From Parabacteroides sp. TM07-1AC (lineage in GTDB: Bacteria; Bacteroidota; Bacteroidia; Bacteroidales; Tannerellaceae), in NCBI RefSeq assembly GCF_003480915.1, contig NZ_QUKD01000001.1, forward strand, positions 744,001-808,000: a stretch of 64,000 nucleotides of DNA. Direction: 5' to 3'. Below are positions 14,946 to 61,984 of the stretch, in pieces. A program made the translations under genes and the position numbers. Every line of letters begins with the position of its first letter. The first letter of the stretch is position 1. The notes below the pieces were generated by a model. It was not told the DNA's origin and ran no database searches. It worked only from the letters and a program-made list of their open reading frames with translations.

Positions 14946-15402
14946 TTACTTTTGGCTTGATCCAAAAGTAATCAAAAGATCAAGGCTGCACCGGCTTCGC
15001 TGCTACGGTGAAAGACTACGCTCAAAAATCCGAAACTCGCTACGCTCAAACAACGGATTTTTTTAACCGCTTCGTCTTTCCCCTTCGCGGACGCTCACCC
15101 GCTGAGGCCTTTCCAAGGAAGCTTTGCTTCCTCTTAGGATTGCCGATACCGATACCTATATATTATAACAGATACTTTCAGTCTTAGCAAGCAGTATCGG
15201 CAATCACAAGAGAACGCTTTGCGTTCTATGAAAGGCCTCAGCTGACGAGCGTTAAGCGCAGCAGCCGGAGTGAGCGCCCGGAGCATCCGCTGTTTGAGCG
15301 TAGCGAGTTTCGGAGGCGACAGCGAACGCAGGATGCGGAGTAGCGAGGCAAGTGCAGCCTTGATCTTTTGGTTACTTTTCTATCAAGAGAAAAGTAGCTC
15401 TA
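14945..15402. repeat. ~450-bp nested foldback element between convergent genes
   Basis: No gene is seen here. The outer arms pair: AAAAGATCAAGGCTGCA near 14975 is the reverse complement of the segment near 15355. A 23-24 bp arm containing AACTCGCTACGCTCAAACA (about 15030-15053) recurs perfectly inverted near 15290-15315. Inside, GCTGAGGCCTTTC and GATTGCCGATAC (15099-15150) are inverted at 15220-15243 and 15192-15205. Two small hairpins (GAAGCTTTGCTTC and AACGCTTTGCGTT) sit on the inner arms. Possible roles are a two-way terminator or a non-autonomous repeat element. Confidence 0.8.
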
Positions 15403-42824: not shown

Positions 42825-42913
42825 TAACTTATACAAAACGGAACTAATTCTTTTCGGCTTAATAAATATTTGGTGGACATTTGTTATATAAACTCACTAT
42901 AATAAGAATACTT

Positions 42914-44173
42914 ATGATAAATGTATCTGTAAAAGTAAAACGACGTAAGAGCATGGTACAGCGAAAGGCGGTGCCTCTTTTCGTACAGCTTATCGGCAAA
43001 CGGAAGATGCGACGCATCCCGCTCGATGATTTGCGGCTTTACGAAGAAGAATGGGACCCGCTCTTCGAAAATGTATGCATCCCGCCAGGGACATCCCGTG
43101 AGAGGACGGAGTATCTGCTACGGGCTACAGACCGGTTGGAAAAGGAACTTTCCGCTATTCGGACGGTAATAAGCAAGCTCGCAAATTCAACGGACGTTAC
43201 CGTTGAAGAAATAGTTGCTGCCTATCAGGAGCGGAATGGCTCGATTGCCTGGACTGCCTACCTCGACAAGTTGATAGAAGGCTTGCGGGAGAAAGGATGC
43301 GACTCGACCGCCCGGCATTACCGCAGCCTTGAGAGAAGCTTCAACACCTTCCTCGAACACCGGGTAATCATGCTGAGGGATATCAGCGACAGGCTGATAA
43401 AGGAATACGAAGGGTTTCTGGTAGGGAAAGGACTCATGCCCAATACCGTCTCATTCTATCTCCGGACATTCCGCGCAGTATGGAACAAGGCGATACGGGC
43501 CGGACTGATCGAACAGCGCCCCTCTCCTTTCCGGGAGGTCAATACCCGGATCGAGAAAACAGAGAAACGGGCTGTCGATACCGATGTTATCGGGAAACTG
43601 GAGAATCTCAGGGACACCCTCCCCGGCAACCTGGCCATGTCGCTCGATTTCTTCCTGTTCTGCTACTATGCAAGGGGCATGGCCTTTATCGACCTTGCCT
43701 ATCTTACCAAAAAGAATATGCATGGCGATATGATTGTCTACAAACGCAGGAAAACCGGACAGGAACTTCAGGTAAAAATCCTTCCCGTCATGAAAAAGCT
43801 GCTCGACCGGTACCGCGACAAAAAGAGTCCTTACCTCTTTCCCATATTGAATACCGGGACTGACAGCGATAAAAAGTATCAAAGCGCCCTGCGCTTGCAG
43901 AACCTGCACCTGCAAAAGATTGGGAAAAAGATCGGTGTAAAACTATCGGCTCACGTCCCCCGCCACTCATGGGCCAGCGCAGCAAAAAGCAAAGGCGTTC
44001 CCGATGAATTGATATCGGAAGGAATGGGGCATACCTCGGTAAAGACAACGTGGATATATATTCGAAAGTTTAACAATACGAGACTGGACAATATGAATGA
44101 ATATGTGATTACAGGTAAAAAACAACCACCGGGTTCGCCCTATGAATATAGGGGGAGAAAGCAAATGCTGTAA
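42914..44173 (+). CDS. Tyrosine recombinase, probable DNA invertase of the fimbrial switch
   Basis: 419 residues. It has an N-terminal Arm-binding-like domain (about 5-60), a SAM-like core-binding domain (about 105-200) and a catalytic domain. The catalytic residues are visible: Arg254 (ARGMAFID), Lys280 (YKRRKTGQ), His347-x-x-Arg350 (HVPRHSW), His373 (GHTSVKTT) and Tyr382 (TWIYIRKF). The start is the ATG at 42914; the TTG at 42881 adds eleven unlikely residues. Its 3' end is 8 bp from the left arm of a pair of inverted repeats that bound a 475-bp segment before the fimbrial operon. That placement makes inversion of this segment its probable job, rather than integration of an element. Confidence 0.88.
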   Translation: MINVSVKVKRRKSMVQRKAVPLFVQLIGKRKMRRIPLDDLRLYEEEWDPLFENVCIPPGTSRERTEYLLRATDRLEKELSAIRTVISKLANSTDVTVEEIVAAYQERNGSIAWTAYLDKLIEGLREKGCDSTARHYRSLERSFNTFLEHRVIMLRDISDRLIKEYEGFLVGKGLMPNTVSFYLRTFRAVWNKAIRAGLIEQRPSPFREVNTRIEKTEKRAVDTDVIGKLENLRDTLPGNLAMSLDFFLFCYYARGMAFIDLAYLTKKNMHGDMIVYKRRKTGQELQVKILPVMKKLLDRYRDKKSPYLFPILNTGTDSDKKYQSALRLQNLHLQKIGKKIGVKLSAHVPRHSWASAAKSKGVPDELISEGMGHTSVKTTWIYIRKFNNTRLDNMNEYVITGKKQPPGSPYEYRGRKQML

Positions 44174-44180
44174 ATAAAAA

Positions 44181-44205
44181 ATCCGTCTCTTACCAAGAGA
44201 CGGAA
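44181..44205. repeat. Left inverted repeat (IR-L) of the putative invertible segment
   Basis: A 25-bp arm with core GTCTCTTACCAAGAGAC. It matches the reverse complement of 44681-44705 at 23 of 25 positions. Each arm is itself palindromic (GTCTCTT/AAGAGAC) around an asymmetric ACC, as expected for a recombinase core site with two inverted binding elements. Confidence 0.88.
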
Positions 44206-44680
44206 GTCATAGCTTTGTTAATTGTTAAAACGCCGTAAAGGTAATGACGTTTTGTGAAAAAACAAATGCTTTTCCATTTATTTTAAGCAAAAGTACTTAA
44301 TATTCAAGCTTATCTTGAATATGAAAACATCTTTTAAGGAAAGAACGACTTAAGTCAAAGCTCTTTCCAAGATAACTATGTCACTCTAAATGCCTGCTTT
44401 AATTACATGTTACTATTTAATTATCAGTCGTTTAACAATTGTTTTACGGTTGTTTTGCGATTTAGTTTGAAATTCATCCGATATTGTCTTCCACCCTTTA
44501 CTTGTCTCAGCCTTTTTATTTAAGCTCTGAAAGCCTGTAAAATGGAATTGTAGCATAAAACAGCCCTGATTCGGGGATATGTTTGTTTTACAATTTGTTT
44601 GACGTTATGTTTCAGGTGTTCTCACATTCCATCCGGTTTGGCATAAATTTCAATCGTCTTCAGAAATGTACCTTTCCTCC
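44206..44680. promoter_or_regulatory. Putative invertible promoter segment
   Basis: 475 bp, AT-rich and without a gene, lying between the recombinase and the fimbrial operon and bounded by inverted repeats. The best promoter match is the leftward TACTTTTG at 44288-44295. A weaker rightward candidate is TTAGTTTG at 44462-44469, with TTG 20 bp upstream. Inversion would point the strong box at the fimbrial genes. Confidence 0.75.
44288..44322 (-). promoter_or_regulatory. Leftward promoter with operator-like palindrome
   Basis: The minus strand has TACTTTTG (44288-44295), a perfect -7 box. Just upstream is a 23-bp palindrome with 9-bp arms ATATTCAAG and CTTGAATAT (44300-44322) around CTTAT. It occupies the spacer and -33 area, where no TTTG is seen, so a regulator may bind there. 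Confidence 0.65.
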
Positions 44681-44705
44681 TTCCGTCTCTTGGTAAGAGA
44701 CAGAA
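44681..44705. repeat. Right inverted repeat (IR-R) of the putative invertible segment
   Basis: The partner of 44181-44205, in opposite orientation; its core reads GTCTCTTGGTAAGAGAC. It ends 30 bp before the first fimbrial gene. Confidence 0.88.
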
Positions 44706-44735
44706 CAAGCGGAAACACTCAACAGTATTAATATT

Positions 44736-45296
44736 ATGTATAGGGAATACCACTTACTAATTGTACTTTTATTTTGCCTGTCACCTTGCCTGCATAGCCA
44801 GCAAACAGCGTTAAAGACAAATATCCTTTTTTGGGGAACTACAACTCCGAATGCAGGTGTGGAAGTGGGTATCACCCGTCAGCTCACCCTCGATATCTGG
44901 GGCGCATACAACGCCTGGAAATTCAAAAACGATATGAAATTGAACCTTTACCTCCTACAACCGGAAGTCCGTTACTGGTTCTGCCGCAAGTTTGAAGGGC
45001 ACTTTGTCGGTGTTCACGGGCATTACGGCCATTTCAATATCGGACAGATACCGTTCTTCTCCGGCCTGAAAGAGTATGTATTGCGTGGCGACCTCTATGG
45101 CGGCGGCCTCACCTACGGTTACCATTGGGCGTTAGGCGAACGGTGGGGACTGGAAGCCATGATAGGCGGAGGCTATGCCTATATGAAATACGACAAATAC
45201 CGCTGTGCCGATTGCGGGGAGAGGGTCGGTTCTTTCACCCGGAGTTATTTCGGACCTACACGTATCGGTTTCTCTATCATTTATTTCTTACGATAA
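44736..45296 (+). CDS. DUF3575 family protein, first gene of the fimbrial operon
   Basis: 186 residues with a signal peptide (LLIVLLFCLSPCLHSQ). The body is an outer-membrane-barrel-like DUF3575 domain (ALKTNILFWGTTTPNAGVEVGI, then LNLYLLQPEVRYWF, ending RIGFSIIYFLR). Such proteins are regular members of FimA/Mfa-type fimbrial loci in Bacteroidales; their role is unknown, perhaps as a surface assembly or anchoring component. No promoter lies between IR-R and this gene, so its expression should depend on the invertible segment. Confidence 0.82.
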   Translation: MYREYHLLIVLLFCLSPCLHSQQTALKTNILFWGTTTPNAGVEVGITRQLTLDIWGAYNAWKFKNDMKLNLYLLQPEVRYWFCRKFEGHFVGVHGHYGHFNIGQIPFFSGLKEYVLRGDLYGGGLTYGYHWALGERWGLEAMIGGGYAYMKYDKYRCADCGERVGSFTRSYFGPTRIGFSIIYFLR

Positions 45297-45307
45297 AAAA
45301 CGACGGT

Positions 45308-46975
45308 ATGAGAATCTATCTGTTACATATTATAATGTATGCTTTCGTCGCATCCTGTACGTTCCTGTTCGCCGGGACGGCAGTAGCCGAAGGCGTACGG
45401 ATTGTCCCCAAATCTTTCGCGATAAAGAACGACAGCCTGCACATCTGGTTGGACATGGATTTGAACAGCGTACACGTCAACTCACAGACAGCCGTCATCT
45501 TTACCCCCGAACTAAAAGGAAAAAAAGGAAATACCCATCTCGTGCCACTGCCCCCCGTCATCATAACCGGAAGCAAACGTTACCGCTATGAACGCCGCGA
45601 ACGGGCTTTAGCCATAGGAAAAGAAACACCGGCAAGCCCATTCCTGGTACTGCTCGAAAACAGACGGACAGGATCGAAGACCGTCAGCTATAAGGTGACC
45701 ATACCTTACACTTCATGGATGCAGCAAGCCTCCCTGCTGCTTCGCCAGGAACTGAAAGACTGCTGCGACCTGCAATTGTTGGGTGTCGATACGCTTACAC
45801 GGCAAATCAGACTTAAAAATAAACCGGCAACAACACCTGTATACGCCGAAGAAATGCCTCAACCGGTTATCGCCCGGGCAAAGACATCGGTTGCCGGGAA
45901 CATCGCTGCGGTAACCGCTCCTGCCGACCTCCGGGAGGTGACGGTTCCGGCAACCGTTCCTGTTCAAAGACCGGTTCCGGCTATTACGAATATCGTCCTT
46001 TCTTCTACGGCTCTCGATACCTACGCATCGATGGTGTCGTTCCTCACTCCTGCCTCCGGACGGCAAAACAAGAGACGCTCTAAAAGTGCTACCTTATATA
46101 TAGATTATCCTTTAGGCAAAGACGAAGTATATCCGGAATACAGAAATAACCGGGAAGAGATCGACAAGATAGACGCAAGCCTGCTGCCGGTCTTATCGGA
46201 AGGTTTTACCCAACTGGAATGTATCCGGATAAAGGGATGCGCCTCGCCCGACGGCAACTACGGCGACAATGAACGACTGGCAGAAAACCGTTCCCGCCTG
46301 TTTGCCTGGTATGTACAGCGGGCCTACGACTTACCCGCCCATCTGTTCGACGTCTCATCGGTAGCCGAAGACTGGGACGGACTGGAAGAAATACTCAGAC
46401 AGACAAAGCCGTCTTATTACAGACAGGCAATCGATATCATTCACCGGTACGGCATTTTCAGCGGGCGCGAAAAGCACCTGATGGACCTTCAGGGGGGTGC
46501 CCCTTATAAAGATATGCTGAAAAGGTTGTTCCCAAAGCTTCGCCGTATCGAGTTCACGGTAGAATACCGCATCCGTCCGCTCGATGCCGGTGAAGCTTCC
46601 GAAATGATCTATACGCATCCCGACCTGCTCAGCCTGGAAGAAATGTATGATGTGGCACGCTATTACCGTCCGGGCACGGATCAGTACCGCGAAGTGTACG
46701 AAGTAGCCGCCTTCCATTTCCCGGACGAAGTGACCGCCAATGTCAATGCCGCATCGGCCGTCATGCTGACCGGCGATTTGAAATCGGCGTGGAACTACCT
46801 GAGCAAGGTGGAAGCCGATCCGCGTGCCTGGAATAATATAGGAGTGCTCACCCTGATGGAAGGCAATCCCGAAGGGGCTGCCGTCTGGTTTCGTAAGGCG
46901 GTAGGCATCGAACCCCGTAAGGCGAGAAAGAATTTGCAGATAGCGGAAGGAATGATAAGTAAGAGTTCATATTAA
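45308..46975 (+). CDS. DUF3868/OmpA-like periplasmic fimbrial accessory protein
   Basis: 555 residues from the ATG at 45308, which opens a signal peptide (MYAFVASCTFLFAGTAVAEG). The N-terminal DUF3868 domain covers about 25-165. An OmpA-like segment (IRIKGCASPDGNYGDNE, then LAENRSRLFAWYV) lies around residues 300-350. The C-terminal ~120 residues contain TPR-like helices (AWNNIGVLTLMEGNPEGAAVWFRKAV). It may tie fimbrial assembly to peptidoglycan. It follows the DUF3575 gene by 11 bp; earlier in-frame codons overlap that gene and are not used. Confidence 0.82.
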   Translation: MRIYLLHIIMYAFVASCTFLFAGTAVAEGVRIVPKSFAIKNDSLHIWLDMDLNSVHVNSQTAVIFTPELKGKKGNTHLVPLPPVIITGSKRYRYERRERALAIGKETPASPFLVLLENRRTGSKTVSYKVTIPYTSWMQQASLLLRQELKDCCDLQLLGVDTLTRQIRLKNKPATTPVYAEEMPQPVIARAKTSVAGNIAAVTAPADLREVTVPATVPVQRPVPAITNIVLSSTALDTYASMVSFLTPASGRQNKRRSKSATLYIDYPLGKDEVYPEYRNNREEIDKIDASLLPVLSEGFTQLECIRIKGCASPDGNYGDNERLAENRSRLFAWYVQRAYDLPAHLFDVSSVAEDWDGLEEILRQTKPSYYRQAIDIIHRYGIFSGREKHLMDLQGGAPYKDMLKRLFPKLRRIEFTVEYRIRPLDAGEASEMIYTHPDLLSLEEMYDVARYYRPGTDQYREVYEVAAFHFPDEVTANVNAASAVMLTGDLKSAWNYLSKVEADPRAWNNIGVLTLMEGNPEGAAVWFRKAVGIEPRKARKNLQIAEGMISKSSY

Positions 46976-46993
46976 TAATAGGGATACAAAGTA

Positions 46994-47947
46994 GTGGAAA
47001 GGAGACAGAAAGGAAGGCTCGGAGTGATGAGCGTTATACTGGCAGTGATACTGGCAGGATGCACGTTTGGCGACGAGCCCTCCGTATGTCCCTATAATAT
47101 CAGGATGGAGTACTGGTATGCAGGCAGCAATGTAGAAAACACGCTGCCGGTCTATGTAGACAACCTGCGCCAGTTCTTCTTCGACAGCAACGGAAAACTG
47201 ATCTCGACCGAGACCCTGCGCGGCGACAGCATAAGCGGCTGGGAAGGGGAACTGCCCGACGGACGATACACCGCCGTCCTGTGGGGAAACGTGGGAGAAG
47301 GTAACGATATGCAAACGGATGTTGAAAACGGTAACAACTCCCTGCTGGGTGAAATGACGCTCAGCGCCGTGACGGAAGGCGTTCCGCCCGGGTTCAGGGG
47401 AAATACCGGACGATTATATTACGGAACGGCCAACTTCGAAGTAGAGAACGGAGTCACCCAGCGGCAACGGGTTTACCTCTCCCACGCACACGCCGTGCTC
47501 TCGATCACGGTACAGTGGATGGCAGACGCTCCGCCCGAAGGCGGTACTTACCGGATGCACCTGAAAGGTATCCCGGCTGTGTACAACTTCACAGGGCAAT
47601 CGGAGCATATCACCCCCGGCGGCGACGGGGTTTATACCATCCCGCGTATCGGAGGCGTGATCACCTACCACGATACACGGGCGGCGATGAACTTCGACGG
47701 GGAAGTGACGGGCGAGTTCGTCACCTTCCGTTACACCTCCGCCACACACCAGATGTGGAGCCTCTGGCGGGATAACGAACAGATCATACGCGACCTGGAC
47801 CTGAGCACCTTCTTCAAGAAGTTGCCGATGGATATGGATACGAACATGGAGCAAGAATTCGATCTGCTCATCACGGTATACGAAGATAAGATCGTTGTCA
47901 CCCAGGCAGCCGGAGCCGACTGGGATGAAGGTGGCACGATAGGATAA
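46994..47947 (+). CDS. FimB/Mfa2-family fimbrial anchor lipoprotein
   Basis: 317 residues. I favour the GTG at 46994: it supplies the basic n-region (MERRQKGRLG) before VMSVILAVILAGC, whereas the ATG at 47027 would leave a signal with no positive charge. The lipobox is LAGC. The body has the two-domain FimB/Mfa2 pattern (YNIRMEYWYAG, then NLRQFFFDSNGKLIS and ELPDGRYTAVLWGN), a protein that caps and anchors the fimbrial base in the outer membrane. It lies between the DUF3868 gene and the giant fimbrillin gene. Confidence 0.85.
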   Translation: MERRQKGRLGVMSVILAVILAGCTFGDEPSVCPYNIRMEYWYAGSNVENTLPVYVDNLRQFFFDSNGKLISTETLRGDSISGWEGELPDGRYTAVLWGNVGEGNDMQTDVENGNNSLLGEMTLSAVTEGVPPGFRGNTGRLYYGTANFEVENGVTQRQRVYLSHAHAVLSITVQWMADAPPEGGTYRMHLKGIPAVYNFTGQSEHITPGGDGVYTIPRIGGVITYHDTRAAMNFDGEVTGEFVTFRYTSATHQMWSLWRDNEQIIRDLDLSTFFKKLPMDMDTNMEQEFDLLITVYEDKIVVTQAAGADWDEGGTIG

Positions 47948-47979
47948 AATATGAATAGTAATATTTAAATTAGAGAGAA

Positions 47980-50900
47980 ATGAAACAGGTATTAAAATGT
48001 ACAGCCATCCTGCTGGCAGCCTTACTGGCCGGATGTACGGAAGAAACACAGAACGGAGGCGGCGACAACAAGCCCGACCCAGGTGAAACAGACAGCGGCC
48101 AGCGCCGCGAAGTATTGCTAACGCTCAAAAACAAACTGGCACTGAAAGAAGTTTCCACTAAGGCGGGCGACCCGATCGCCACGGCGGAGGAGAATACCAT
48201 CTCCACCCTCGACCTCTACGTCTTCGCCGCAGCCGATGAAAACGGCGAATACACCTTCCAGGAACGCTTCGCCTACCGCGCCGACGGCAGCGAACTGCCC
48301 GAAGGCGCCTCCGAGCTCGAACTCACTCCGGGTAAGGATGATACACAAACGACAGGCTTGCTCAACCTTAAGAAAGGCCTGTTCGCCAAACTCTACTGCA
48401 TCGTCAACCAAACGGCATTGGTCGATCCGGCACACGAAGACGAAACCCTTACCGATGCCGCCTTCGTACCCCTGACCTTCACCAAACCCGGTGAACAGGG
48501 CACGCAGGTCGCTACATTGGGGCAGCCCACAGAAACAGCCTTCCTCACCTTCCATACCCCCCTGTTGAATACCGCAGCGAAGGGCGACACCCTCCGTACA
48601 CCGCTCGCCATGTCGGGGGCCTACACCACACCCATCGACCTGACCGACTTCAATAGCTCGGCACGCGTACAGGCAGGCTTCAAGCTCACACGTCTCGCCG
48701 CACGTTTCGATATCATCAATAAAGCGGAAGAGTCCCGCTTTTCCATCGAGACTGTCTCGATGGGCAACGGTAGAAGAGGCGCGACCCTCTTCCCTATACG
48801 CATCTACGGAAAGACGCCCGACGCACAGCCCGAAGAGCTTATCACCTATCCTTTCAGGGCTTTCTATGGCGACAACGCCAACACCGGAACCCAAACAGGA
48901 GCCTTCTACTCCTATCCTTCACCGCTTAACGATAAAGGCTATATGATACTTAAAGGGAAATACCAGGTCAACAAGACCGAGAGCAAAGACGTTTCCTACC
49001 AGATACCATTCACCCAAACCGACGGCAATGGCAACGAAACCTCGTTGGAGATCAACAATAACCACCGATACACCATCGCCATCACGAAGGCCGACGACTA
49101 CCATCTCGACTTTACCCTGACGGTGGCCGACTGGGCCGACGACGGGAGCATCGAATACAACCCCAACGAAGACGACAATGAGCTACTCGTTACCATTCCC
49201 GACGCATTCAAAGACGATACCAAATACGATCCGGACACACGCTCCGTCAGCATGTCGCTAAAACCCGACAGCAAATTCGAACTCGAAACCACCGCTTCAT
49301 CCAACCTGATGGTGGAGAAAAAATACGTGGGAGGACTGGCGGCACAGCAGTACGACTGGCTCGAAGTCTCAGAACCGGCCGTCTCCACAAAAACGGCGTT
49401 AAACTTCACATATACATTCTCGCTCAAAGACGGATATACACTGGGACGTTATCCGCGTGCCGTACTGCGCTTCACCAATACCATGAACGGAGACGAGACG
49501 ACCTTCTTCGTCGAGGCGGTAGCCGCTCCGCAGGCAGACAACACGACACAGCCGGGAGAAAACAACCCCAACAGCTTCGATGCTGAAAACCTGCAGGTAA
49601 ACCTCTATCGCACGACCGGCAGTAAGGCGCATGTGCGTATCACCTGCCCCGACGGTACAGAGGTGGAAAGCAAACCCGACTGGATCGACGTGACCATCGA
49701 CAAACAGAACGGTGCGGAAACAATCTATCTGCTCACGCTCAACGACCGCGATATCACAGGCGTCCCCGACGATAAGGGCACCGTCATTTTCCGCAACAGC
49801 AAAGCGAAAGAGCTCAAAACGGATATTACCGTGCAACTGCTGGATGCCACCCTGAAACCGGATTTCACCAATTCTACGATCGACGGCTCAAAGAACAGCT
49901 ATGAAGCACCTGTCGGTGACACCCCGGCAAACGTCAATATGCAAATTTCGGACGCAAACAGCTTCGCCGTCAATTGCAAATCCATGCAGGGCATCGAGAT
50001 CGGCATGGACTTCGACGGAGGGCCCGAATGGCTCAAAGCCGCAGGCGCGAACGTAACCAAGGCTTACAATCAGAATGCAGAACTCACCTTTTCACTCAAC
50101 AACGACAAGCTGGGAGGTGCAAAAAAAGCAACCGTCACACTCAAAAACAAGGTAGGCGGCAAAAACACGGTCTTCACCGTCTCGCCCGTATTCCTTGTCC
50201 CCACCGTCGCTTTTGTCAGCGGAAGCAGCTCCCCGACACAAAACACGATGTCGGGCACTGATATTAAACTGTATCAGGTAACCGGTTCAATGGTAAGCTT
50301 CAAAGCAAATGCTTTAGGCGGTACCTGTGTCAAAAAACTAACGGGCGATATCACCGTGACTGCCGACGATAATTATGCAGCAGAAAAGACGTATGTAGTC
50401 ACCTGGAAAAGCGGGGAATCGGCATCTTTTGTCATTGCCAACAAATCGGATGAAACAAAGGAGACTGCCACTTACGCGGTCAGTGCACCGGTTACAACGA
50501 TTACGGCTACCGAAAATCTGGATATGAAAACATTGGCCAGCCAGAACGTGACCAATACGATCAACTCGCCCGAAGGATGTACGGCTGCCGTGAGCTGGGG
50601 AAGCGGCGGACAAGCCTGGTTCGATCTGAGCACAACGAACCTCAATGCAAATAACCAGTCTCTCAAAATGACGACCAAAAGCAATATCACGACGCTGACG
50701 AATATACAGAAAGCGACCGTTACGCTGACAAACAAGATTACAGGAGGAGTTGCAAAAACCTTTACTGTAACACCGCTTTATCAATTTATCAGTGCTGAAC
50801 AGACTTCATCTACCGGTAATAATCTGATCGGTACGGCAATCAATATGGTTAAGATGTCAGGCAACACCGGCTACCATGCCCAAATAACATTGAAAGTCCT

Positions 50901-51498
50901 CTCTTTGGGCGGCAGTAAAGTCACTGTATCCGGAACCGGACTAAAATTAACCGGAGCAGCTTCCAACACAGCTTACACAGCCAGCTATACACTGGATGCG
51001 GCTTATAACGCAGCGGCAAGCGGGACATTGACGATTACCAATTATCTAAATACCTCAAGCAAACAGGTTTACAATATAAGTGTAAAGGATCAGACGGTTA
51101 CCTATACGTCAAAGAGTACAGGACAAACAGCACCGGCTTTGGAAATGACAAAATATTGGGTGGCACCGATGACGGAAGGGTTGGCTAATTACAATGATGC
51201 ACAATCAAAATGTCCGGATGGATGGAAGTTACCATTAAAGAATGATTTCCGAGAATTTACAAGGAATGATAAGCAAAATATGATTGAAAAATTTCTAGCA
51301 GGTGCTGACCCTCAAGGTATTGGATTGGGTGGTGACGCAAAGGGTTTAGTCGCTTATTGGGGAAGTGAGTGGGGTGGTACTAACCCATCTTCACTCACTG
51401 TAGATCAAAGTCAATGGTCTTGGTACATCCGAGACGGTGCGTATTGCGGCTGTACCAACAACAGTCTATTAAACGTCCGTTGCATTAAAGACAAATAA
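47980..51498 (+). CDS. Giant Mfa-like fimbrillin with C-terminal tip-type domain
   Basis: 1172 residues. The lipobox is LAGC (17-20) and a likely trypsin-like maturation site lies after Arg43 (GQRR|EVLLTLK). Residues 44-400 are Mfa1/FimA-like (STLDLYVFAA, KLTRLAARFDI, AITKADDYHLDFTLTVADW). Residues about 400-1040 contain several repeated beta-sandwich (BACON-like) modules. The last ~110 residues (MTKYWVAPMTEGLANYNDA, CPDGWKLP, YWGSEWGG and CGCTNNSLLNVRCIKDK) form a FISUMP-like, lectin-type end. The size and C terminus suggest a tip adhesin. The end of the gene has clearly lower GC than its body. Repeat A follows immediately. Confidence 0.82.
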   Translation: MKQVLKCTAILLAALLAGCTEETQNGGGDNKPDPGETDSGQRREVLLTLKNKLALKEVSTKAGDPIATAEENTISTLDLYVFAAADENGEYTFQERFAYRADGSELPEGASELELTPGKDDTQTTGLLNLKKGLFAKLYCIVNQTALVDPAHEDETLTDAAFVPLTFTKPGEQGTQVATLGQPTETAFLTFHTPLLNTAAKGDTLRTPLAMSGAYTTPIDLTDFNSSARVQAGFKLTRLAARFDIINKAEESRFSIETVSMGNGRRGATLFPIRIYGKTPDAQPEELITYPFRAFYGDNANTGTQTGAFYSYPSPLNDKGYMILKGKYQVNKTESKDVSYQIPFTQTDGNGNETSLEINNNHRYTIAITKADDYHLDFTLTVADWADDGSIEYNPNEDDNELLVTIPDAFKDDTKYDPDTRSVSMSLKPDSKFELETTASSNLMVEKKYVGGLAAQQYDWLEVSEPAVSTKTALNFTYTFSLKDGYTLGRYPRAVLRFTNTMNGDETTFFVEAVAAPQADNTTQPGENNPNSFDAENLQVNLYRTTGSKAHVRITCPDGTEVESKPDWIDVTIDKQNGAETIYLLTLNDRDITGVPDDKGTVIFRNSKAKELKTDITVQLLDATLKPDFTNSTIDGSKNSYEAPVGDTPANVNMQISDANSFAVNCKSMQGIEIGMDFDGGPEWLKAAGANVTKAYNQNAELTFSLNNDKLGGAKKATVTLKNKVGGKNTVFTVSPVFLVPTVAFVSGSSSPTQNTMSGTDIKLYQVTGSMVSFKANALGGTCVKKLTGDITVTADDNYAAEKTYVVTWKSGESASFVIANKSDETKETATYAVSAPVTTITATENLDMKTLASQNVTNTINSPEGCTAAVSWGSGGQAWFDLSTTNLNANNQSLKMTTKSNITTLTNIQKATVTLTNKITGGVAKTFTVTPLYQFISAEQTSSTGNNLIGTAINMVKMSGNTGYHAQITLKVLSLGGSKVTVSGTGLKLTGAASNTAYTASYTLDAAYNAAASGTLTITNYLNTSSKQVYNISVKDQTVTYTSKSTGQTAPALEMTKYWVAPMTEGLANYNDAQSKCPDGWKLPLKNDFREFTRNDKQNMIEKFLAGADPQGIGLGGDAKGLVAYWGSEWGGTNPSSLTVDQSQWSWYIRDGAYCGCTNNSLLNVRCIKDK

Positions 51499-51520
51499 CC
51501 GTACGCCGTAAACAAGAACA

Positions 51521-51586
51521 GCCGCCAGTGGGCGGCTAACGAAAACCAGGCCACGGCCTGAAACGATCTTTGACATGATGGGATTG
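51521..51586 (+). repeat. Locus repeat copy A (right half only)
   Basis: It contains the hairpin GCCGCCAGTGGGCGGC, the hairpin CAGGCCACGGCCTG, and the constant tail ending CATGATGGGATTG. The same parts, in the same order and orientation, occur in copies B (52104) and C (53309); the tail also occurs in E (61901). Confidence 0.85.
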
Positions 51587-51666
51587 GTATTTTACAGCGA
51601 TCTGAAAAATCGTTGGTGAAAGGATAGATTTTGTAAATACATGATGTTTATCTTATTAGTATTGTT

Positions 51667-51674
51667 TATCTTTG
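51667..51674 (+). promoter_or_regulatory. -7 box of the small antitoxin gene
   Basis: TATCTTTG, a perfect TAnnTTTG, 27 bp before the ATG at 51702. Confidence 0.6.
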
Positions 51675-51701
51675 CCTTTGTTAAACAAAACATGTAAAGC
51701 T

Positions 51702-51860
51702 ATGGCACGACCTATTAAAGAAACTCCCGTTTTATACGGTGATGACGCAAAGCGTTTTGATGAACGAATGAAGTATAATGAAACGCATAAAGCTACGGAA
51801 AAAGAGAAACAACGTATCCGTAAAGCGTATGAATATATGATTTCAATAACAACCAAATAA
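51702..51860 (+). CDS. Small antitoxin-like protein (partner of a GNAT protein)
   Basis: 52 residues, starting MARPIKETPVLYGDDA. This N terminus followed by a charged helix is typical of small Bacteroidales proteins encoded directly upstream of GNAT acetyltransferase genes, an arrangement like GNAT toxin-antitoxin pairs. The downstream GNAT gene is deleted here, so the antitoxin is probably an orphan. I start at 51702 because upstream TTG codons overlap the promoter. Its low GC differs from the fimbrillin gene body. Confidence 0.7.
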   Translation: MARPIKETPVLYGDDAKRFDERMKYNETHKATEKEKQRIRKAYEYMISITTK

Positions 51861-51869
51861 ATTACCGCT

Positions 51870-52087
51870 ATGCAACCAAAACATCTTAACTTACAAATTC
51901 TTTCCGATAAGACTAATTTACAGTCATTCGATTGTGGTGATGATGACCCGGATGCCGTTTTATCACAGTAGATGCTTACCGAACTGCATTTGCTTTTTAT
52001 GAGAAAAACGGTTTTGAATATCTGACACAAAAAGACGTTAACGATCATACAAGACTGATGTATTACGATCTGTGTCTCCTACTTTAA
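51870..52087 (+). pseudogene. GNAT acetyltransferase remnant with internal deletion
   Basis: The frame starting at 51870 reads MQPKHLNLQILSDKTNLQSF and then runs into a stop at about 51971. From 51959 in another frame the sequence continues as the family's C terminus (FITVDAYRTAFAFYEKNGF, then RLMYYDLCLLL) to a stop at 52085-52087. About 100 central residues are missing and the two parts are out of frame, so no active enzyme can be made. Confidence 0.85.
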
Positions 52088-52103
52088 TAGTCTGTTAAAA
52101 TCC

Positions 52104-52262
52104 AATCGCATCTGTTATAGGGTACAGATGCACCGATCGTTACGCAGCCCCTGGCAAGGGGTTGTGCAGCTTTTCGTGTGCGTTTGTGTAAATAGCCGCC
52201 AGCGGGCGGTCAATTGGCAGGCTCCGGCCTGAAACGATCTTTGACATGATGGGATTGAAAGG
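52104..52262 (+). repeat. Locus repeat copy B (full length)
   Basis: ~160 bp made of four hairpins in series: CATCTG...CAGATG, GCAGCCCC...GGGGTTG, GCCGCC...GGGCGG and CAGGC...GCCTG. The constant tail GATCTTTGACATGATGGG follows. It lies between the GNAT remnant and the HTH/RelE module. Confidence 0.88.
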
Positions 52263-52282
52263 AAAAAGGTAGAACCTTTTTC

Positions 52283-52314
52283 AGTTGACAGTTGACAAGT
52301 GACAGTTGACAGTT
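52283..52314. repeat. GTTGACAGTTGACA repeat, second locus
   Basis: Nearly the same heptamer run as at 17559-17586, in the same orientation and here without its inverted partner. Confidence 0.7.
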
Positions 52315-52368
52315 AGGCTTCGCGATCGGATATAGAAAGAAGTGAGCTATCCATTTACAGTGACGGGA

Positions 52369-52472
52369 GTAACTTTTCCCCTCTTGAGAGGGGGCAGGGG
52401 GTGTGTTATAGTTTCGGCATATAACTGGCTTTAACACACCCCTTATCCCCTCTCAAGAGGGGAAAGAGTTAC
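52369..52472. repeat. Foldback repeat with CCCCTCTTGAGAGGGG arms
   Basis: The ~40-bp arm starting GTAACTTTTCCCCTCTTGAG at 52369 is nearly the reverse complement of 52432-52472. The loop is about 25 bp. Elements of this type are widespread between genes in Bacteroidota genomes. No gene is present in 52088-52610. Confidence 0.8.
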
Positions 52473-52554
52473 CATCAGTCGCCATAAACAGACACTATAA
52501 AATAGCTCAATTCTGACAATAAGTGAAAACGAACAGTTAATAAGGTAAATTCTA

Positions 52555-52585
52555 TTGACGATCTAACAAATTATCAATAAATTTG
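52555..52585 (+). promoter_or_regulatory. Promoter of the HTH/RelE module
   Basis: TTG (52555-52557), a 20-bp spacer and TAAATTTG (52578-52585), 25 bp before the ATG at 52611. Confidence 0.65.
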
Positions 52586-52610
52586 TCGGAACTATTAAAA
52601 CAAATTAATT

Positions 52611-52916
52611 ATGACTACAAATTTACCTCCAAAGAACTGTCGCAGTTGGGATGATGTTCAAGATGAACTCTTCGGACCGAAAGGAACCCCACAACGAGAC
52701 CAACTGGAAAAAGAAAGCGAAATGTTTCGTATCAGTGAACGACTGAAATTAGCCCGGAAAGATGCCGGATTAACTCAGCAGGAATTAGCAGAAAAGGTCG
52801 GTTTAAAAAGAAGCGACTTGTCACTTATAGAAAATGGAAAAATGAATATTAGTATCGATACCTTATTCGACCTTTTCAGGGCGGTAGGCAAACAAATCAG
52901 TTTTACCATTATGTAA
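52611..52916 (+). CDS. XRE-family HTH antitoxin
   Basis: 101 residues. The helix-turn-helix covers about 43-98 (RLKLARKDAGLTQQELAEKVGLKR in two helices, then SDLSLIENGKMNISIDTL). Next comes a RelE/HigB-type toxin gene after 34 bp, so it probably neutralises that toxin and represses its own promoter. The antitoxin-first order differs from classical higBA, where the toxin comes first. The module sits between repeat copies B and C. Confidence 0.85.
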   Translation: MTTNLPPKNCRSWDDVQDELFGPKGTPQRDQLEKESEMFRISERLKLARKDAGLTQQELAEKVGLKRSDLSLIENGKMNISIDTLFDLFRAVGKQISFTIM

Positions 52917-52950
52917 CGTAAAAGTACTTCTCTTAAAACCAACCTAACTT

Positions 52951-53295
52951 ATGAAAACTATACGCAATTTTTTCTTCTACGGCAATTATGCCTTTGACTT
53001 CATTAAGCAGCAAAATACACCGATGCAAAAGAAAATCAAGTTTGTATTTGATGTACTCCGCTACGAACAAGTTGTCCCCAAACAATTTATCAAACACATT
53101 GAAGGAACAAAAGGCCTCTACGAAATACGTATAGAGGCTGAAAGTAATATTATCCGTATCTTTTGTTGTTTCGATGAAGGACAACTCATTGTCTTATTCA
53201 ACGGCTTTCAGAAAAAGAGCCGGAAAACTCCGGCTCGTGAAATACAAAAAGCATTGTCTTTAATGAAAGAGTATTTCGAAAGCAAGAATCTTTAG
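52951..53295 (+). CDS. RelE/HigB-type toxin (Gp49-like)
   Basis: 114 residues. The HigB/Gp49 fold is suggested by VFDVLRYEQVVPKQFIKHI, GLYEIRIEAESNIIRIFCCF, and then LIVLFNGFQKKSRKTPAREI, with the Arg/Lys/His residues of ribosome-dependent mRNA interferases. It should cut mRNA on the ribosome when not bound by the upstream HTH protein. It ends 13 bp before repeat copy C. Confidence 0.85.
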   Translation: MKTIRNFFFYGNYAFDFIKQQNTPMQKKIKFVFDVLRYEQVVPKQFIKHIEGTKGLYEIRIEAESNIIRIFCCFDEGQLIVLFNGFQKKSRKTPAREIQKALSLMKEYFESKNL

Positions 53296-53308
53296 TCTTT
53301 TTCCCGTC

Positions 53309-53468
53309 AATCACATCTGTACCCTATAGCAGATGCACCGATCGTTACGCAGCCCCCAGCAAGGGGTTGCGCAGCTTTTCGTGTGCGTTTGTGTAAATAG
53401 CCGCCAGCGGGCGGCCAATTGGCAGGCCACGGCCTGAAACGATCTTTGACATGATGGGATTGAAAGGA
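53309..53468 (+). repeat. Locus repeat copy C (full length)
   Basis: It has the same four hairpins and tail as copy B. The loop of the first hairpin reads TACCCTATA here but TATAGGGTA in copy B, that is, reverse-complemented. The tail runs directly into the promoter of the ATPase gene. Confidence 0.88.
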
Positions 53469-53483
53469 ATGGAAATATATTCC

Positions 53484-53491
53484 TATATTTG
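53484..53491 (+). promoter_or_regulatory. -7 box of the AAA-ATPase gene
   Basis: TATATTTG lies 23 bp before the ATG. A TTG 21 bp upstream belongs to the constant tail of repeat C (GGGATTG), so the repeat may supply the -33 element. Confidence 0.6.
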
Positions 53492-53514
53492 CAAATACGA
53501 AAACAATTAAGCTT

Positions 53515-55197
53515 ATGGACAGAAAAAAGCTACCGATAGGCATCAGCGACTACAAGCTGATGATCAGCGAAGACTATTATTATGTGGATAAGACAGATTT
53601 TATCCGACAGATAGTAGAAGAGGGAAGTCTGATCACACTCCTCCCCCGTCCACGACGCTTCGGCAAGACGCTCAACCTCTCCACCCTGCGCTATTTCTTC
53701 GAGAAAACGGAAGGAAACAAATTCCGCCCGCTTTTCAAGGGGAAAAAGATCGAAGAGTGGAAAGACTTCGAGAAGTATCAGGGGAAATATCCCGTGATCA
53801 TGATCACGCTCAAGGACTGCAAAGGCGATACGTTCGAAGAGACCCTGATGCAAATCGGCATACAATTGCAACAAGAGTTCGAACGCCACCGGTATTTGTC
53901 GGACGACCAGCTCTCAGAGATCAATCGGGAATGGTTTGATAAAATATACCGCTTGCAGGCTGACAGCATTATCCTGCAAAATTCCTTGCGTTTATTATCT
54001 GATTTGCTCACTGCCCACTGGGGAATACCCCCTCTCGTCCTGCTCGACGAATACGATACCCCTATCCACGTAGCCTTCGACAAAGGCTATTACGACAAGA
54101 TGATCGGATTCATGCGAAACCTGATGAGTACGGTATTCAAAGACAATACGGATATCTTCCGCGGAGTCATTACAGGCATACTAAGGGTCAGCAAAGAGTC
54201 GATTTTCAGCGGGTTGAATAACATTGCCGTTTTCTCCTTACTGGATCGACCGATGTGCACCTCTTTCGGGTTCACACAGGAAGAGACAGACAGGATGCTC
54301 GACGATTACTCATTCGGTACTTATAAAGAAGAGGTGAAGCAATGGTACGACGGATACCTTTTCGGAGGAAAGACCGTCTACAACCCTTGGTCAGTGCTCA
54401 ACTTTATAATGTATAACGGCGTACTCGCTCCTTACTGGGTCAACACCGGTTCCGATGTTCTGTTGCGCCACCTGCTCGCCGACGGACCTTCGCAGATACG
54501 CGAAGGTATCGAAGCTTTGATACAGGGCGATCCGCTGCGTAGCGTGATCAACGACAAGCTCGCCTTTCCCGATTTGTTGGCCGAAACATTCAACATCTGG
54601 TCGTTCATGCTCTTCAGCGGATATCTCAAAGCATACGACCCGGTAAAAACCGGCGACGACCTGACCGAATACACCCTGCAGGTACCCAACAGGGAAGTAA
54701 GGACAGTATTCTTTACCATCATCCGCAGCTGGATCAACAACAGCCCCGTAAAGAACGAACGACTCGAACTCATGCTCCGCGCATTGGACGAAAACAATAT
54801 GCCGATCTTCCGCCGCCTGCTCAACGACTTCGTAGTCAATTCGCTTTCGTATTACGACACTTCCGGACGCGATCCGGAGAAAGTCTACCAGGCCTTCCTG
54901 CTGGGGTTGCTCGTCAGCAACAGCGCCTACGAAGTGAGCAGCAACCGCGAATCGGGCCTCGGACGTTACGACATCCTGCTACGGCCACGCGACCTGAGTA
55001 AACGGGGTATCATTATCGAACTCAAGCTCTACGACCCGTTGTACGACGAGTCCGTCGAAGCCATCCTCGACTCCGCCCTCCGGCAGATCGAAGACAAACA
55101 ATACGCCGCCACGCTCCGCCAGGCCGGTGTCGGCGAGATACTTAAAATGGCGATCACCTTCGACGGCAAGCAGGTCTATGTGAAGACTGTCGAATAA
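53515..55197 (+). CDS. AAA-ATPase-like and PD-(D/E)XK nuclease-domain protein
   Basis: 560 residues. The N-terminal AAA-ATPase-like domain has the P-loop RPRRFGKT (Lys51) and the Walker B LVLLDEYDT (Asp178-Glu179). The C-terminal PD-(D/E)XK domain has Asp486 (GRYDILL) and Glu502-x-Lys504 (IIIELKLYD), the catalytic nuclease set. Such proteins occur in many paralogous copies in Bacteroidales and their role is unknown; defence or mobile-DNA functions have been suggested by their domains only. It sits alone between repeat copies C and D inside the fimbrial locus and has its own promoter. Confidence 0.88.
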   Translation: MDRKKLPIGISDYKLMISEDYYYVDKTDFIRQIVEEGSLITLLPRPRRFGKTLNLSTLRYFFEKTEGNKFRPLFKGKKIEEWKDFEKYQGKYPVIMITLKDCKGDTFEETLMQIGIQLQQEFERHRYLSDDQLSEINREWFDKIYRLQADSIILQNSLRLLSDLLTAHWGIPPLVLLDEYDTPIHVAFDKGYYDKMIGFMRNLMSTVFKDNTDIFRGVITGILRVSKESIFSGLNNIAVFSLLDRPMCTSFGFTQEETDRMLDDYSFGTYKEEVKQWYDGYLFGGKTVYNPWSVLNFIMYNGVLAPYWVNTGSDVLLRHLLADGPSQIREGIEALIQGDPLRSVINDKLAFPDLLAETFNIWSFMLFSGYLKAYDPVKTGDDLTEYTLQVPNREVRTVFFTIIRSWINNSPVKNERLELMLRALDENNMPIFRRLLNDFVVNSLSYYDTSGRDPEKVYQAFLLGLLVSNSAYEVSSNRESGLGRYDILLRPRDLSKRGIIIELKLYDPLYDESVEAILDSALRQIEDKQYAATLRQAGVGEILKMAITFDGKQVYVKTVE

Positions 55198-55225
55198 CCG
55201 AATAACAAATAATTCCATTCCTTTC

Positions 55226-55315
55226 AATCGCATCTGTAAACAATAAACGGATGCACCGATCGTTACGCAACCTCCAGTCCGGGGGTTGCGCAACTGTTCG
55301 TGTGCGTTCGTATAA
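55226..55315 (+). repeat. Locus repeat copy D (left half only)
   Basis: It carries the first two hairpins of the full repeat (CATCTG...GGATG and GCAACCTCC...GGGGGTTGC) and the stretch GTTCGTGTGCGTTCGT, then stops matching. It lies after the ATPase gene, as the left halves of B and C lie after their modules. Confidence 0.82.
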
Positions 55316-55379
55316 CTGAAATAACACTGGTATTAACCGGGACAGAATAAAAAAACACTGTCCCACAAAAGAATAAATT

Positions 55380-56132
55380 ATGGCAAATACATTGAAAGTC
55401 TGGATGGCACCCAATACGGTGACATCCGACCCGAAAGACAGGATCTTTCTGCTGGAAACGACCGGCAATGCCAACATCGACAAAATCTACGAAGAAATGC
55501 GTGCCGAAGACACCGGGTTGCGTCCCGAAACCATCACACATGTTGTCACCCTCTTCGAGCGCGTCTGTGCCCGTATGCTGATGAACGGATGGCAACTCAA
55601 CACCGGGCTGTTCTACGCCGTACCCCGCCTGTTGGGGCTGGCGGAAGACGGCAAATGGAACCCTGAAACGAACAACATCTACGTAGCCTTCACACAGAAC
55701 AAGGTGGTACGCGAAGAGATCGGGAAAACCGCCATCAGTATCCTGGGCGAAAAAGCCGACGTGATGTACATCATCGGAACGGAAGACCGCAAGACAGGCC
55801 TGAAAGACGGCACCATGACACCGGGACGCAACTTCTTCGTGCGCGGTGCCAACCTCAAAGTGACGGGCACCGACGCATCCGTAGGCGTCAGCCTGACCAA
55901 TACGAAAACGAAAGCCGTAGTGAAACTCGATGACGACATGATCACGAAAAACAACCCGTCCGAACTAACCTTGTTGATCCCCGCCGACCTGGCCGACGGC
56001 AACTATCTGCTGACCGTACGTACCCAGTTCGGTACCAGCAACCATCTGCTGAAAGAGCCGCGCGAAGTATCCGTCGACGTACATGTGGGAGCCGGAGGCG
56101 GCGGAGAAGACGATCGCCCCGTCATCGAATAA
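55380..56132 (+). CDS. HU-like DNA-binding protein with C-terminal DUF4469 domain
   Basis: 250 residues, no signal peptide. Residues about 1-125 resemble the HU-like domain found in Bacteroidales (NTLKVWMAPN, ITHVVTLFERVCARMLMNG, YAVPRLLGLAEDG). Residues about 140-240 form an Ig-like DUF4469 domain (RNFFVRGANLKVTG, NNPSELTLLIPADLADGNYLLTVR). It is cytoplasmic, so it may organise or regulate the fimbrial DNA rather than form part of the pilus. It restarts the fimbrial operon after the inserted modules and is followed by a 23-bp palindromic array and a fimbrillin gene. Confidence 0.78.
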   Translation: MANTLKVWMAPNTVTSDPKDRIFLLETTGNANIDKIYEEMRAEDTGLRPETITHVVTLFERVCARMLMNGWQLNTGLFYAVPRLLGLAEDGKWNPETNNIYVAFTQNKVVREEIGKTAISILGEKADVMYIIGTEDRKTGLKDGTMTPGRNFFVRGANLKVTGTDASVGVSLTNTKTKAVVKLDDDMITKNNPSELTLLIPADLADGNYLLTVRTQFGTSNHLLKEPREVSVDVHVGAGGGGEDDRPVIE

Positions 56133-56154
56133 GACAACAGCCGGGAAGCCGCCC

Positions 56155-56229
56155 TTCCCAGCGTTGGGAAGTGTCTCTTCCCAGTACTGGGAACTGTGAC
56201 TTCCCAACACCGGGAACCGCAACTTCCCG
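56155..56229. repeat. Tandem 23-bp palindromic array
   Basis: TTCCC begins at 56155, 56178, 56201 and 56224, an exact 23-bp period. Each unit is a TTCCCAnnnnTGGGAA-type hairpin. It lies between two genes in the same direction, so it is probably transcribed and could act on mRNA. Confidence 0.85.
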
Positions 56230-56287
56230 GAATGAAACAAATATCAATTTTTCAACGAATAATATGTTTAATAAAAAAACAACGAAC

Positions 56288-59140: not shown

Positions 59141-59151
59141 AACCAACAGGG

Positions 59152-59203
59152 GGTATGTCGGGGTAACGACCGGCAAACGCCGGATACCGACAGCCGACAT
59201 ACC
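59152..59203 (+). terminator. Nested stem-loop between fimbrillin genes
   Basis: GGTATGTCGG (59152-59161) pairs with CCGACATACC (59194-59203) around an inner CCGGC...GCCGG hairpin. No T run follows, so it may attenuate or stabilise the mRNA rather than end it. Confidence 0.7.
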
Positions 59204-59221
59204 TCTCTAACAAACAAGCAT

Positions 59222-61462: not shown

Positions 61463-61487
61463 AGGAATATCCGTAAATAAACTAACG

Positions 61488-61538
61488 GAGGATATGTCGG
61501 AAGTCCGCCATGACAAAACGGACTTTTGGCATATCCTC
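61488..61538 (+). terminator. Stem-loop after the last fimbrillin
   Basis: GAGGATATG (61488-61496) pairs with CATATCCTC (61530-61538), with AGTCCG/CGGACT inside. TTCTAAA follows. It is related in sequence to the stem-loop at 59152 (both contain ATGTCGG). Confidence 0.75.
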
Positions 61539-61568
61539 TTCTAAACTCTACATTTATACTGAACTAAA

Positions 61569-61856
61569 ATGAATAAACACGACTTAATAAAAGAACTATC
61601 CTCCCGACTGAATACCACACAGCAGGAATGCACTTCCCATCTGAATACTTTGCTCGACATTCTCAGCGATGAGCTGGAAAAAAAGAATTCTCTGGTATTG
61701 CAAGGTTTCGGCACCTTTCACCTATGGGAACAAACTGCCAGGGCAGGGAGGAATCCCAAAACAGGGGAAACAGTACCGATCCTTTCCCGCAACAGCGTCA
61801 AGTTCAAGGCAGGAAAGAATTTACTGAAAAAACTCAACAAAAGGGTAGATCAATAA
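61569..61856 (+). CDS. HU-family DNA-binding protein
   Basis: 95 residues, the length of HU/IHF. The order is helix-helix (HDLIKELSSRLNTTQQECTSH), then LQGFGTFHLWEQTARAGRNP, with the beta-arm motif GRNPKTGE, then FKAGKNLLKKL at the C terminus. It binds and bends DNA. It is the last gene of the fimbrial locus, so with the DUF4469 protein the locus has two HU-like proteins. They could assist inversion of the promoter segment, but that is speculation. A weak -7 box (TACATTTA) lies 13 bp before the ATG. Confidence 0.9.
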   Translation: MNKHDLIKELSSRLNTTQQECTSHLNTLLDILSDELEKKNSLVLQGFGTFHLWEQTARAGRNPKTGETVPILSRNSVKFKAGKNLLKKLNKRVDQ

Positions 61857-61900
61857 CTGCACCGCTAAATAAGGAGAATAAACTGCCTTCTGCAAACAAC

Positions 61901-61946
61901 CCGGCTTCGGTCGGAAACAATCTTTGACGTGATGGGATTGAAAGGA
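61901..61946 (+). repeat. Locus repeat copy E (right tail only)
   Basis: It contains the constant tail (AATCTTTGACGTGATGGG, then ATTGAAAGGA), and the bases after it resemble those after copy C. CAATCACATC, the beginning of the left half of copy C, occurs about 20 bp further on. Confidence 0.75.
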
Positions 61947-61984
61947 ACGGAAACATTATTCCTATCCTCTCAATCACATCCTTT

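Follow-up and report, generated by a model that had tools for sequence, protein, structure and literature searches.

A probable promoter inverton between a tyrosine recombinase gene and a type V fimbrial operon in Parabacteroides

In E. coli, the fimS segment of about 300 bp, which carries a promoter and lies before fimbrial genes, is inverted by the tyrosine recombinases FimB and FimE. Among the gut Bacteroidales, a phase-variable locus of B. fragilis was eventually recognised as one for type V pili, inversions of this sort being driven by tyrosine recombinases, according to the portion of a review available to us (PMC12632263). The B. fragilis promoter IVp-I is inverted by the adjacently encoded recombinase Tsr19/BF2766 and was mostly OFF in culture, as given in the accessible part of that report (PMC4747536). 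Bacteroidota invertons have further been described near invertase and fimbrillin genes, with an embedded Bacteroides promoter motif and an invertase gene that is not itself regulatable (PMC11892184, partial text). Our literature search, which covered such partial texts, found no report of the Parabacteroides locus described here or of arm-type repeats within a promoter inverton.

The locus lies in a 64,000-nt stretch of the genome of Parabacteroides sp. TM07-1AC (contig NZ_QUKD01000001.1, positions 744,001 to 808,000), referred to below as the window. Judging from the sequence and its relatives, we consider it very likely that a 473-bp segment of this DNA is a promoter switch inverted by the adjacent tyrosine recombinase, with the likely effect of turning a type V fimbrial operon on and off. 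A switch of this kind had been proposed in a preliminary description, which left the orientation unstated, and the proposal gained support from the layout, the repeats found downstream of related recombinase genes, the segments reversed between relatives, the outward promoter-like box and the short gap before the first fimbrial gene. The elements of the predicted switch are:

42914..44173, plus strand: tyrosine recombinase gene, predicted invertase, 419 aa from the ATG at 42914 (Pfam Phage_int_SAM_5 and Phage_integrase; fold; inverted repeats just downstream in 64 of 74 examined relatives)
44182..44206, plus strand: left inverted arm, core GTCTCTT-ACC-AAGAGAC at 44185-44201 (repeat search, shuffles, core scan)
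44680..44704, minus strand: right inverted arm, core GTCTCTT-GGT-AAGAGAC at 44685-44701 (repeat search, shuffles, core scan)
44207..44679, no strand assigned: segment predicted to be invertible, 473 bp (orientation matches five relatives; related segments reversed between genomes)

The repeat search returned the arms as 25-nt inverted copies with 24/25 positions paired (96% complementary) and 473 nt between them; they are the pair formerly placed at 44181-44205 and 44681-44705 with 23/25 identities, shifted by one. No better 25-nt inverted match was present between 43900 and 45000, and 100 dinucleotide shuffles of this region reached at most 21 (mean 17.5). Each arm is itself palindromic around an asymmetric 3-nt centre, GTCTCTT-NNN-AAGAGAC, just as the preliminary description had it (GTCTCTT and AAGAGAC flanking ACC), with ACC in the left arm and GGT in the right. 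The core was not found elsewhere in the window when up to two mismatches were allowed. Since the arm centres are opposed, recombination between the two sites would invert the segment and not delete it, and the recombinase is proposed to cut and rejoin the DNA within these cores. The recombinase stop codon (44171-44173) is followed after 8 bp by the left arm, the spacing given before, and the right arm is followed by the ATG at 44736 after 31 bp, where 30 had been counted. The locus thereby shows the arrangement by which an inverton is recognised, a short segment flanked by inverted repeats next to a recombinase gene. As the recombinase gene is not part of the segment, either orientation would leave it intact.

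Beyond the right arm, the fimbrial cluster includes the following genes:

44736..45296, plus strand: DUF3575 protein, first gene of the fimbrial operon (PF12099, 232 bits)
45308..46975, plus strand: DUF3868 protein (PF12984, 42.4 bits)
46994..47947, plus strand: Mfa2-type fimbrial anchor with a lipobox-like LAGC near the N terminus (PF08842, 73.7 bits)
47980..51498, plus strand: lipoprotein-like protein of 1172 aa, probable fimbrial subunit or tip protein (by position and LAGC near the N terminus; no Pfam match)
59222..61462, plus strand: fimbrillin-like protein of 746 aa (matched only weakly by P_gingi_FimA, at 16.2 bits against a cut-off of 21.4)
61569..61856, plus strand: HU/IHF-family DNA-bending protein of 95 aa (PF00216, 95.7 bits)

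An Mfa2-family anchor accompanied by lipoprotein subunits with lipobox-like N termini is what characterises a type V fimbrial (FimA/Mfa) locus, and both are present here. By curated models, the sub-threshold P_gingi_FimA match was the only sign of a stalk fimbrillin, with none for 47980-51498 or 56171-59140. Positions 52611-53295 hold an HTH_3 gene and then a Gp49-like gene, likely a toxin-antitoxin pair within the 19-kb insertion described below, and an AAA-ATPase_like/PDDEXK_9 gene (53515-55197) is found amid the fimbrial genes; a stretch 73% identical to the latter also occurs after the fimbrial cluster of another Parabacteroides genome, G038.

The AlphaFold model of the recombinase (mean pLDDT 83.9) had the lambda and Tn1549 integrases as its nearest folds. 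As the rows of the structure alignment (VIA-align) span mainly residues 105-399, the fold of the putative N-terminal arm-binding domain is assigned from secondary structure and from the Pfam matches of relatives: Arm-DNA-bind_5 exceeded its cut-off in the recombinases L006, L101, P0005 and P0006, scored 13.8 in that of the window (cut-off 22.6) and was absent in L002. The preliminary description had credited the protein with a complete R-K-HxxR-H-Y set. Here K, HxxR, H and Y are indeed present, but the first canonical Arg is Ala in the alignment to XerA; the Arg counted earlier was probably residue 253 (residue numbers refer to a 418-aa frame). This residue is absent in 6/30 aligned relatives, R277 is kept in 30/30, and the column of the first Arg contains Ala in 23, Thr in 6 and Ser in 1. 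By analogy, the invariant R277, two residues before the catalytic Lys, may substitute for the missing first Arg; an alternative Arg in this role has been reported for the CTnDOT integrase in the part of the source available (PMC8138268). NCBIfam invertase models matched neither the window recombinase nor three of its relatives, and the protein as a single query gave no match in collections of genome contigs and viral contigs.

The order recombinase, arms, DUF3575, DUF3868, Mfa2 and fimbrillins was also found in P. gordonii (L006), P. faecis (L002), Parabacteroides G038 (L101/L123) and Butyricimonas (L021, with arms CCTCTTNNNAAGAGG), and the MAG loci L003 and L005 have the recombinase and arms followed by a DUF3575-like start. 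The occurrence of orthologues in two named species, P. gordonii and P. faecis, makes the switch testable in laboratory-grown strains. The unit of G038 is related yet different, is sited elsewhere than the insertion of the window and has a recombinase 43% identical to that of the window. We also observed that the asymmetric centres are swapped as a pair between the window (ACC in the left arm, GGT in the right) and L002, L003, L006 and L101, which have the exact core with GGT in the left arm and ACC in the right; inversion of the segment cannot produce this swap.

Whole-genome scans located the exact core at two sites each in G001 (the P. gordonii genome holding L006), the MAG G002 and G038, only as a single pair at the orthologous locus, and the backwards-pattern control gave 0 in all three. 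These scans bear on whether the segment might be flipped by another cellular recombinase, a master invertase, or by two recombinases that cross-act. Related recombinases are many in Parabacteroides genomes (41 matches in G001, 23 in G002), and Tsr19/BF2766 works on both a local and a distant site in the available text of PMC4747536; we nevertheless judge either possibility very unlikely, as the exact core sits at one locus in each of the three genomes, beside its own recombinase, and cores differ between neighbouring members in G002, such as L005 and L003. This MAG has four loci of the window clade; three of them have cores other than the exact one, which suggests a drift in site specificity. 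For L001 and L004, two of these loci, the contig breaks off no more than about 50 nt from the arm core, which fits, if only indirectly, assembler breaks caused by mixed orientations.

Bacteroides promoters carry the -33/-7 consensus TTTG / TAnnTTTG. Immediately inside the left arm, loci L002, L003, L005, L006, L101 and the partial L001 have a minus-strand TAnnTTTG that is directed away from DUF3575, and at this place the window carries the following site:

44236..44266, minus strand: predicted leftward promoter, directed away from the fimbriae and composed of TTTG (44266-44263), 19 nt and TACCTTTA (44243-44236); 9/10, one base off the consensus

Among two-box matches, the one at the conserved place scores best in L005, L006 and L101, and not in L002 or L003. 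With the box of the relatives pointing away from DUF3575 and that of the window one base off, we predict with moderate confidence that the sequenced orientation is OFF. The sole promoter able to serve the operon would lie inside the segment, beside the left arm and facing away from the fimbriae, and inversion would move it to a point about 40 nt ahead of the right arm and direct it into DUF3575, giving the ON state. The switch might instead be real and the sequenced orientation ON, with a plus-strand promoter near the right arm driving the fimbriae and the minus-strand box not the working one. The candidate TTTG-N20-TATGTTTC, with its box at 44606-44613, equals the minus-strand site at 9/10, and strict -7-like boxes occur elsewhere in the segment, including TATGTTTG at 44578. 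We consider this reading unlikely, since neither plus-strand place has a strict TAnnTTTG in the other five close segments, whereas the minus-strand place reads TAnnTTTG in 6/6 relatives and an outward box near an arm recurs across the family: after ten near-identical copies (L032-L035, L037-L040, L042, L043) had been left out, TAnnTTTG within 70 nt of an arm was outward in 46/56 segments and inward in 8. The box pointed away from the downstream side in 33 segments and towards it in 15, two segments having both.

The window itself, with TACCTTTA in place of a strict box, is counted among the 10/56 segments without an outward box. Such a drifted box, together with the single orientation shared by the six close segments, could mean that this strain has a locked or decayed switch, with arms that persist and a recombinase that no longer flips the segment. 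We regard a locked switch as distinctly unlikely: the recombinase frame is intact with R277 and the remaining catalytic residues kept, the arms have diverged at a single position of 25, and public sequence contains a recombinase 99% identical to it (P0001, 68 member sequences). On the minus strand, positions 44170-44205 comprise the left arm hairpin and then ATTTTTTATTT, which resembles a terminator of the leftward transcription expected in the OFF state; by eye, a T-run of this kind after the arm was seen in the window only, and not in L002, L003, L006 or L101.

The recombinase family was surveyed at 92 loci, comprising the best 80 of 478 relatives in one collection and 12 from related genomes; 74 had at least 500 bp of downstream sequence and 18 were too short to examine. 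An inverted repeat starts no more than 330 bp past the recombinase stop in 64/74 examined loci, which are not independent because near-identical copies are included, against 1/55 and 0/47 control stretches. In the loci examined, this class of recombinases is one of local invertases rather than element integrases.

The segment was compared across related genomes, a check named in the preliminary description. The six close segments (window, L002, L003, L005, L006 and L101) are in the same orientation in 15/15 pairs, the pairings of the window itself being weak except with L101 (84 vs 23), and reversed segments were found in 21/91 alignable pairs, in four groups of loci with related recombinases: L031 against ten exact reverse complements and L045, L061/L065, L012/L055, and the L008-L041 group. 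In the first group the exact reverse complements are 165 bp long, L036 is without arms and L045 is a diverged reverse match. In L061 and L065 the arms share CTCTT-NNN-AAGAG and a TACATTTG box turns with the segment, pointing left in L061 and right in L065; by arm core and box these two are nearest to the window type, and their downstream genes are not fimbrial. The identical 165-bp segment of the first group is found with its recombinase in records named Leyella, Bacteroides, Phocaeicola, Prevotella and others (L031-L035, L037-L040, L042, L043), in one orientation in L031 and in the other in ten, and is probably part of a recently spread mobile element carrying a switch.

A separate survey took 40 DUF3575 loci out of more than 150 matches listed, and inverted repeats were found upstream in 19/40, of which 15 were used; L164, L168, L182 and L186 were dropped as short or hairpin-like. 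L178 and L185, one DUF3575 locus in two Parabacteroides genomes, have a 390-bp segment that matches (367/388) only as the reverse complement, between flanks identical at 602/630 positions on the right and 53/58 on the left. The box TAACTTTG points towards DUF3575 in L185 and away from it in L178, whose recombinase is only about 30% identical to that of the window. These two belong to a second class of DUF3575 switches in Parabacteroides (L174, L176, L178, L185, L195, L197, L198), with arms of the type CTTATTTATGAAATAAG and mostly a shorter tyrosine recombinase. Among the matches listed, G001, G002, G014 and G038 have 14 to 23 DUF3575 matches each, unusually many such fimbrial loci.

The recombinase, switch and fimbrial cluster of the window lie together on an insertion:

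42847..61982, no strand assigned: 19.1-kb insertion comprising these elements, lacking in G038, G014 and G001 (blastn of flanks and empty sites)

The sequences flanking it are 12, 17 and 14 bp apart at the empty sites of G038, G014 and G001, where the counterparts of the backbone gene 37467-39029 are 99%, 97% and 95% identical, respectively. The recombinase gene starts about 70 bp inside the left end of this insertion that three related genomes lack, and its closest folds are integrases, so that it could be taken for the integrase of the insertion and the arms for attachment-site relics or, given the hairpin and T-run at the left arm, for transcription terminators. We hold this to be highly improbable. 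The arm core is absent from both junctions and no repeat was seen there by eye, the recombinase-arm-DUF3575 unit has other surroundings in P. gordonii and P. faecis, the T-run is confined to the window, and segments of relatives are reversed between genomes. Elsewhere in the window, the intergenic stretches 14945-15396 and 52333-52528 match repeats at other places in G038 and G014, in both orientations, and the former resembles a long inverted repeat with arms of roughly 200 nt.

Returning to the promoter switch, the segment also contains helically phased TGTTT repeats:

44440..44455, plus strand: phased tandem repeat A, with TGTTT from 44440 and again from 44451 (11-bp spacing)
44584..44612, plus strand: phased tandem repeat B, with TGTTT from 44584, 44596 and 44608 (12-bp spacing)

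Across the six close segments, TGTTT pairs 11 or 12 bp apart number 11 on the plus strand and 0 on the minus strand, with at least one in each segment, against a mean of 0.12 and a maximum of 2 in 2000 shuffles; the P value is post hoc, because the motif was first noticed by eye in those same segments. They are grouped in two places, in the middle of the segment and 84-96 nt from its right inner end. A matrix built from 21 sites detected the tandem arrangement in 0/19 more distant segments, four of which (L021, L031, L012 and L120) exceeded shuffles in single sites (P < 0.05, uncorrected), and plain TGTTT-N6/7-TGTTT was found in the L061, L065, L074 and L121 segments. Upstream of the DUF3575 genes the tandem occurs in 4/40 loci, two each in L165 and L175 of the window clade and one each in L180 and L183; outside the two clade loci this amounts to 2/38 upstream stretches with a single match each, and the tandem tracks the recombinase clade more than DUF3575.

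The HU-family gene closes the cluster of the window and is related to genes within the fimbrial clusters of L002 and L006 (53%) and of L021 (27%). It was not found by tblastn in L003, L005 and L123, which are short contigs or a 15-kb stretch, and L123 has an HU-DUF4469 gene instead. Together, the repeats and the HU gene hint at a lambda-like complex. Tentatively, and with more doubt than belief, we propose a switch in the style of lambda integrase, in which the catalytic part of the recombinase would act on the arm cores, its N-terminal arm-binding domain would hold the TGTTT repeats and the cluster-encoded HU would close the complex, giving the switch a built-in direction. As the repeats point one way and lie inside the inverted DNA, the two states would present different complexes, from which the direction would arise. 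If this reading is true, the bending factor would be produced by the ON state itself, and the repeats and the HU gene would make switching direction testable in a Bacteroidota system.

Fimbrial phase switching driven by tyrosine recombinases is already known, and the details of the present locus that could go beyond it are the phased repeats, the HU gene and the replaced Arg. To Parabacteroides it adds a well-defined, probably OFF-biased fimbrial switch with its own recombinase and its own arm core. Like E. coli fimS, it combines a tyrosine recombinase with a short predicted promoter segment ahead of fimbrial genes, but the fimbriae are unrelated, there is one recombinase gene, which has an extra N-terminal domain, and the segment is 473 rather than about 300 bp long. 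The type V fimbrial/aggregation locus of B. fragilis (Weinacht et al. 2004, via PMC12632263) shares with it the gut Bacteroidales, a tyrosine recombinase and an inversion, predicted in the window, that affects outer surface proteins; set against the description in the portion of the review available, the window differs in having DUF3575 as its first gene and in carrying the unit on a strain-variable insertion. With the CTnDOT integrase subgroup, as far as the partial source goes (PMC8138268), the recombinase has in common that it is a Bacteroidota tyrosine recombinase with the first Arg missing and a downstream Arg conserved, and some of its relatives also match the N-terminal arm-binding domain; members of that subgroup are element integrases, whereas the window recombinase adjoins an inverton and the insertion ends gave no sign of att sites. 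The invertons of PMC11892184 resemble the locus in their embedded Bacteroides promoter motif, which is one base off in the window, in an invertase gene that is not itself regulatable and in nearby fimbrillin genes; the available main text of that study is without Parabacteroides, and the NCBIfam invertase models leave the present recombinases unmatched. IVp-I has a promoter inverted by a neighbouring tyrosine recombinase, as predicted for the window, and its mostly OFF state in culture parallels the one predicted here; by the accessible part of its report (PMC4747536) it differs in controlling an EPS operon and in having a second, distant promoter, whereas the exact core of the window type marks one locus per genome in three relatives.
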